Assembly: GCF_004364865.1 (NCBI RefSeq)
Contig: NZ_SOAU01000001.1
Coordinates: 4,558,001-4,622,000, forward strand
Source: Ilumatobacter fluminis
GTDB taxonomy: Bacteria > Actinomycetota > Acidimicrobiia > Acidimicrobiales > Ilumatobacteraceae
Reading direction: 5' to 3'
DNA length: 64,000 nt
In this document: positions 8,041 through 30,909 of the stretch, one piece after another
Position numbering within the stretch: the stretch's first letter is position 1
How the letters are laid out: each line of letters opens with the position of its first letter
Made by a program: the position numbers and the translations under genes
The notes under the pieces: model-generated
The model's database searches: none
Told to the model about the DNA's origin: nothing
What the model saw: only the letters and a program-made list of their open reading frames with translations

Positions 8041-8180
8041 CGTTCCCGCCGGGTGAGGCGATGACCAGGCGATCTGCGGCACACCGACGATGCCGATGAA
8101 GGCTGCTCCATTCCTGGCCTGACCTGGTTCACGGGCGCCAGTTGCACAGGACCCGGTCATCACCTCACCCGCCGGGAACG
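8041..8180 (-). ncRNA. ffs: Signal recognition particle RNA (4.5S-type)
   Basis: The minus strand at 8128-8101 carries the universal SRP helix 8: AGGTCAGG, then CCA-GGAA-TGG closing the GGAA tetraloop, then AGCAGCC. The flanking ends, 8155-8180 and 8041-8066, are nearly perfect reverse complements (24 of 26) and form the long basal stem. No separate Alu domain is evident, which fits the small bacterial form. A candidate -10 box, TACACT, lies at 8199-8194. The exact ends are estimated from the stem. The RNA pairs with Ffh to target nascent membrane proteins. Confidence 0.9.
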
Positions 8181-29814: not shown

Positions 29815-30909
29815 TCAGGGGGTGAACGACGGGTAGTAGTTCTCAGCGCCGAACTCGCGCACGTCGGTGAGCCAGTCACCGTCGTACGGCCAGGCGTCGG
29901 GGTCGTCGTCGGCCGGACCCTGCCAGAAGCGGGCGAGGGGGCCGTCGGCGCCCGGCTCGAGCGACCAGGCCTGTCGCTTGTACGAGAAGTTGTCGGGCAC
30001 CAGCCGGTGCGCCTCCCGGAAGTGGGCGATCGCGTCGTCGTGGTGGCCGCGCTGTTCGAGGTGCGTCGCGAGTTCGAAGTGCGCCGTGCCCCGTGCCGCG
30101 TCGGCGTCGCGGGGCCTCGACCGGGCGACGACCTCGTCGGGCGAGAGGGCGAACTCGCTGTCGGCACCACGCTCGACCCAGTCGCGCAGTGCTGCGTGGT
30201 AGGACTCGGCGTCGGTGCGGATCTTGGCGGCCTCACCCATGATCTCGCCGAACCGCCCGGGGACGGTGCCCGGCGCGGCGCCGGGCCGTTCCTCACGGCG
30301 CGGTGGCGGTGCCGCCTCGGCCGGACGGACGATCGTCCCTCGCTCGTCGATCCAGACGCTGTTCGGGATGTTGACGACGCCGAACAGCTCGGCCATCGCG
30401 TGGTGCTCGTCGATCAGCGACGGGTGCGTCGGTGCCGCCGCCTCGATGAACGGACGACAGGCCTCGGCGCCCACCGTGTCCATGCCGACGGTGACCAGCT
30501 CGAAGCCCGTCGGATGCAGTTCGTCGCGCAGTTCCCGCCACACGGGCAGGTCACGGGAGCAGCCTCAATAGGGCGCCCACGACAGCACGACCACCTTCTG
30601 GCCGCGCAGCGACGACAACCGGAAATCGTCACCGTGCAGGTCGGGCAGGGCGAGCTCGGGCGCCTCCGCCGAGACGAGCGCGTGCCCCGAACCGGTCCAC
30701 GGACCGAGTGCCCACAGGTCGTGCTGCTCGTCTCGTACGAGCGGCATCCCCATCCGTTCAGCCGCCGCTCGGACGTCGATACGACCGTCTCGGACGGCGC
30801 CGCCGAGCGGGATGCACACGTCGCCGCGGCACGCCCCCTCGGGCTTCACACTCCAACCGGTGCCGCGCTCGAACTCGTCGGTACCGACGTCGAGGTCGCT
30901 GAGGATCAT
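29815..30909 (-). CDS. Probable selenoprotein: redoxin/TlpA-like protein with in-frame UGA at the active site
   Basis: The frame from ATG 30909 runs 114 codons, meets TGA at 30567-30565, and continues in the same frame to a stop at 29817-29815, giving 364 residues. Around the TGA it reads VVVLSWAPY-U-GCSRDLPVW, which is where thioredoxin-fold redoxins carry their catalytic Cys. Downstream are the expected FELVTVGMD strand, a GVVNIPNSVWIDERG cis-Pro region and a helical repeat tail (FREAHRLVPDNFSYKRQAW). A hairpin with a UGUGG loop lies 22 nt after the UGA. Selenocysteine insertion is inferred. The alternatives are a pseudogene or a sequencing error. Confidence 0.75.
30534..30567 (-). promoter_or_regulatory. 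Candidate bacterial SECIS hairpin just after the in-frame UGA
   Basis: On the minus strand the UGA (30567-30565) is followed by a stem CCCG (30546-30543) and CGGG (30537-30534) closing a 5-nt loop, UGUGG. The loop begins 22 nt after the UGA and has G in its second position. Both fit the loose rules for bacterial SECIS elements (loop about 16-37 nt away, G among its first two bases). The stem is short, so this is supportive rather than decisive. Confidence 0.45.

Follow-up and report, generated by a model that had tools for sequence, protein, structure and literature searches.

The gene on the minus strand at 29815–30909 of the analysed window (the whole 64,000-nucleotide stretch of Ilumatobacter fluminis DNA, part of a one-contig genome of 4,775,416 bases that is 99.97% complete) is predicted to encode a WAxxUGC_long-family selenoprotein with a full length of 364 residues. 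Its UGA codon 115 would be decoded as selenocysteine (Sec) by tRNA-Sec and SelB under the direction of a downstream hairpin, a reading to which we assign a probability of about 0.95. A first-pass annotation made from the letters alone had proposed Sec at this position of a TlpA/ResA-like redoxin, and the proposal was strongly supported by the Sec-decoding machinery of the genome, the conserved TGA, its tracking of SelA, and the hairpin. Computation recovered a conserved UGA, the machinery, a Sec-Cys exchange that tracks SelA, a conserved hairpin, and the fold, and from these we infer Sec insertion at residue 115.

The frame begins with an ATG at 30909 and comprises 364 codons plus a terminal TGA (29817–29815). 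The TGA of codon 115 (30565–30567, minus strand) is the sole other stop in the frame, and the coordinates and frame first given for a gene split only by this codon were exact. Codons 111–117 read WAPY-TGA-GC, in agreement with the WAxxUGC motif of NF041054, and the U-G-C motif (codons 115–117; 30559–30567, minus strand) sits at the place of the TlpA/ResA CxxC with one residue fewer. Compared with a 91% identical relative (L002), substitutions were mostly synonymous on either side of the TGA, with dN 0.081 and dS 0.727 upstream and dN 0.044 and dS 0.429 downstream, indicating purifying selection on the downstream part.

Profile matches ran through the TGA without a break. NCBIfam NF041054.1 (WAxxUGC_long, an equivalog described as "ResA-like WAxxUGC motif-containing protein") matched the protein end to end (residues 1–363, profile positions 1–353 of 354) with 553.5 bits against a cut-off of 300, and Pfam AhpC-TSA matched residues 80–194 (E 5e-14). 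Both matches cross codon 115, as expected if the downstream half continues the fold of the upstream half, which had been suggested from the translation. The thioredoxin-fold (AhpC-TSA/TlpA-like) domain occupies about residues 80–197 (30319–30672, minus strand). Sequence-based matches to solved structures included 3kcm (E 6.1e-13), TlpA 1jfu (E 2.5e-10), and ResA 4nmu (E 1.1e-9). U115 and C117 aligned with the two CxxC cysteines of 3kcm and TlpA 1jfu with one residue missing between them, which places codon 115 at the first Cys of the CxxC and hence at the catalytic-Cys position of redoxins and TlpA-like proteins, as originally read. Cys117 was invariant in the aligned long members (33/33), as was Pro182 (30364–30366, minus strand; 33/33), which we take to be the cis-proline position of the thioredoxin fold.

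A true stop at codon 115 would instead yield a 114-residue protein ending at the UGA and a second protein of 242 residues starting from the GTG at 30543. Both open reading frames exist, and the 242-residue one is possible as a separate frame. However, the thioredoxin domain spans the UGA, the Cys-type homologues are single continuous frames, and a start at 30543 would cut off the active-site end of the domain, so that we consider two separate products very improbable.

The genome contained the full set of Sec-decoding components that the first-pass annotation had named for a genome search. The tRNA-Sec scored 66.6 bits (cut-off 47) with anticodon TCA, SelA 405.6 bits (cut-off 267.9; C1:766771–767898, minus strand), SelB 271.9 bits (cut-off 242.25; 765588–766661, minus strand, directly adjoining SelA on the same strand), and SelD 324.5 bits (cut-off 125). 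The bacterial formate dehydrogenase FdhA, a SECIS-bearing system from an unrelated protein family, provided a comparison within the same genome: an FdhA-like gene (G000:C1:1377583–1379454, L095; 652.1 bits, just under the cut-off of 666.25) carried an in-frame TGA in NRT-U-HAP, the classic UHxP Sec site. Because this TGA lies at the formate dehydrogenase Sec site, the UGC gene is probably not the only selenoprotein of the genome, with the FdhA-like gene as a second likely one.

We searched 395 genomes of the class with the NF041054 profile and found over-cut-off matches in 39 genomes, giving 41 rows. One in-frame TGA was present in 39/41 rows, and the other two (G111 and G203) had TGC at the codon. 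A SelA search covering an equal number of genomes from the class gave 258 genomes with hits at E below 1e-50, the threshold used for counting, and 255 genomes over the SelA model's cut-off. Among the 39 over-cut-off genomes, 37 had both TGA and SelA, none had TGA without SelA, none had SelA without TGA, and two had neither. The family also has a sister branch, of which two scanned proteins scored under the NF041054 cut-off (235.4 and 276.2 bits) and had no score over the cut-off of any other model listed. Sister-branch genes would be left unnamed by the NF041054 rule because their scores fall below its cut-off. Loci L070–L094 of this branch (e.g., L074 and L079), except the Cys ones, mostly had the same in-frame TGA and hairpin.

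Pooling both branches, with sister-branch rows drawn from among the matches listed, gave 114 genomes: 93 with TGA and SelA, four with TGA only, one with SelA only, and 16 with neither (Fisher 6e-15 with relatedness ignored, a value that overstates independence because the rows are related). Family rows with E values above about 1e-35, such as G157:C92 (1e-32), do not enter the pooled count, nor do motif-less or genome-duplicate rows (G027:C90, G236:C42, G212:C353, and G372:C96). The exceptions to the tracking were G292, G363, G188, and G174, which had TGA and no SelA hit, and G162, which had Cys and a SelA hit. G292 and G188 had a tRNA-Sec over the cut-off, while G363 and G174, from genomes 75% and 70% complete, had none over it, and neither did G162. 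In G020, which had TGA and SelA, no tRNA-Sec exceeded the cut-off; G187, a Cys-type genome lacking a SelA hit, had a marginal tRNA-Sec (47.5 vs 47 bits). Genus g122 held both states: G084 and G170 had TGA, SelA, and tRNA-Sec, whereas G111 and G203 had TGC and neither SelA nor tRNA-Sec over the cut-off. This genus offers a natural case in which exchange of Sec for Cys goes along with loss of the Sec-decoding genes.

Codon 115 was then compared in 73 homologous rows: the gene from the window, 32 more rows that were over the cut-off or named relatives, and 40 selected from the sister branch (the 15 lacking TGA, the four with TGA but no SelA, and another 21 with TGA). Every row had either TGA (56/73) or a Cys codon (17/73) in this column, the pattern that a Sec site with Cys homologues had been predicted to give. 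Some UGA read-through occurs generally, but we found nothing in favour of near-cognate decoding of codon 115 as another amino acid (e.g., Trp or Cys) without Sec machinery. We regard this as scarcely credible here, given that the genome has the full Sec machinery, that the non-TGA forms are Cys in 17/17 rows and never Trp, and that the site is the catalytic position. Least probable of all is that a Cys-type gene has recently acquired a nonsense mutation or carries a base-call error, since although TGA is one base from TGC and TGT and Cys codons occupy 17/73 rows, TGA is found in 56/73 rows and 39/41 over-cut-off rows, tracks SelA, and is followed by sequence under purifying selection.

Three further observations concern the homologues. 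G123 and G312 each encoded the UGC selenoprotein twice, both copies scoring over the cut-off. L031 (G221) had U-H-C in place of U-G-C with its hairpin intact. A 66% identical copy (L003) occurred in a MAG labelled Reyranella, a non-actinobacterium, and may reflect a mis-binned contig or a transfer.

Selenocysteine at codon 115 is further supported by a SECIS-type hairpin, CUGCC-CGUGU-GGCGG, at 30535–30549 (minus strand; loop 30544–30540), with 20 nt between the UGA and the loop. A SECIS-type hairpin after the UGA had been proposed from the window sequence, and in kind it is real, but the CCCG-UGUGG-CGGG register originally drawn forms in only 3/56 Sec-type genes. The conserved register was YUGCC-[5-nt loop]-GGCRR, intact in 56/56 Sec-type and 9/17 Cys-type genes (Fisher 1.8e-6, relatedness ignored). 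Its 5' arm includes a Leu codon that was CTG or TTG in all 56 Sec genes, compared with 885/1839 other Leu codons in the same genes; the corresponding values for Cys genes were 9/17 and 237/520. At L041 both sides of the outer pair were changed (U-A for C-G). The loop began with G[G/U] in 56/56 Sec and 14/17 Cys genes, and the intact stem and G[G/U] loop occurred together in 56/56 Sec and 8/17 Cys genes. L-P-x-W-Q coding explains part of this conservation, as those eight of 17 Cys genes keep both elements.

The bacterial SECIS model as given in passages of a 2026 review (PMC13188914) has a stem of 4–16 bp, an apical loop of 3–9 nt with a G in its first two positions, 16–37 nt from UGA to loop, and a free energy at or below -7.5 kcal/mol. 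The conserved register after the UGA fell within these geometry rules, with 5 bp (6 with the next pair), the loop CGUGU with G at position 2, and the 20-nt spacing. The isolated 17-nt hairpin had a free energy of -8.6 kcal/mol, while the best fold of the 45 nt from the UGA was a different pairing at -15.5 kcal/mol. Folded alone, these 45 nt showed no unusual stability (z -0.60, with 41/200 shuffles as good). Support for the hairpin therefore comes from comparison across genes, the window sequence by itself favouring a different pairing.

While the gene was initially described as a probable new selenoprotein, its family was already on record. It shares the WAxxUGC motif with NF041054 over a full-length match, and we found no difference from that family. 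In the passages available of their 2008 survey, Zhang and Gladyshev described "Prx-like (UGC-containing)" selenoproteins (pfam00578, motif UGC), with 46 selenoproteins and 855 Cys homologues, commoner in non-marine samples (PMC2398784). Table 1 of the 2026 review has a "UGC-containing TlpA disulfide reductase family protein" (cd02966, motif UGC; PMC13188914). The pfam00578/cd02966 domain and the UGC Sec motif are common to these families and our gene, which we equated by domain and motif, not by sequence. Main-text passages of PMC5029168 did not name the family, though PMC13188914 cites that paper for it, and neither did passages of PMC12013277. Literature searches by the motif name WAxxUGC and for Ilumatobacter selenoproteins returned nothing on the family by name. 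UGC Prx/TlpA-like selenoproteins have thus been in the literature since at least 2008, going by these excerpts. As the family has both a named public database model and published descriptions, we regard the gene as a typical, well-supported representative of a known selenoprotein family and not as a new kind. The view of U-x-C as an unusual redox site fared similarly: it is unusual among redoxins, but it is already catalogued.

The protein differed from TlpA and ResA in more than its UxC site, despite having the same fold by sequence. It scored below the cut-offs of the TlpA/ResA profiles (NF002854, 53.5 vs 170 bits; NF047696, 36.6 vs 230 bits) and had an extra N-terminal C-x4-C domain and a TPR-like C-terminal part. 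TlpA and ResA are membrane-anchored, whereas no hydrophobic N-terminal segment was seen in this protein sequence. Because such a segment is missing, the protein is probably cytoplasmic, unlike TlpA and ResA.

The N-terminal domain (residues 1–82; 30664–30909, minus strand) had neither a Pfam nor a clear PDB fold match. It contains a C27-x4-C32 pair (30814–30831, minus strand), both Cys of which were kept in 33/33 aligned long-branch members. AlphaFold modelled these 82 residues alone with a mean pLDDT of 84.3; the model of the full protein, built with four sequences, had a mean pLDDT of 45.1 and was left out of the fold search. A Foldseek search with the 82-residue model returned no PDB structure at E ≤ 0.001, and in a second fold comparison with 389 chains Z did not exceed 2.4. 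A resemblance to copper-amine-oxidase N-terminal-like domains was considered and rejected, as Pfam returned no family for the N-terminal stretch at E up to 1. Toward the other end, a TPR-like repeat (residues 276–307; 29989–30084, minus strand) lay at the Pfam cut-off of 27, with 25.3 bits in the whole protein and 27.2 in the C-terminal part. "Hypothetical protein" genes on two Rhodococcus plasmids (NZ_CP063236.1 and NZ_CP044283.1) matched residues 233–320 with 46.6% identity; the redoxin domain lies outside this match.

Six genes flanking the selenoprotein in the window were searched by tblastn against five loci. L002 alone shared neighbours (4/6), and L003, L004, L023, and L029 had no neighbour hit, with L023 and L029 spanning only about 1.5 kb on each side. 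No operon partner or conserved neighbour hinting at a substrate was found among the five loci. Elsewhere in the window, a bacterial small SRP RNA was located at 8060–8158 (minus strand, 69.3 bits).

The product is most likely a soluble thioredoxin-fold thiol oxidoreductase with Sec115 as the nucleophile and Cys117 as its partner. In the mechanism that we propose, tRNA-Sec and SelB would decode UGA 115 as directed by the 5-bp hairpin with its 5-nt loop. Sec115, which corresponds to the attacking CxxC cysteine, would then attack a disulfide or peroxide substrate, and Cys117 would resolve the intermediate as a selenenylsulfide with Sec115 across Sec-Gly-Cys. An internal relay is possible because Cys27 and Cys32 are as strictly kept as Cys117 and Pro182 (33/33). 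More speculatively, the protein may be a cytoplasmic Sec-x-Cys oxidoreductase in which Cys27-x4-Cys32 relays electrons to a strained Sec115-Cys117 selenenylsulfide, with the sister branch extending the family past NF041054, a combined picture that we hold only tentatively and think somewhat unlikely as a whole.

The analysis demonstrates that a reading of raw sequence was able to spot a Sec codon. Though the family itself is on record, its UxC site and the strictly kept pair of N-terminal cysteines would be of interest to biochemists.
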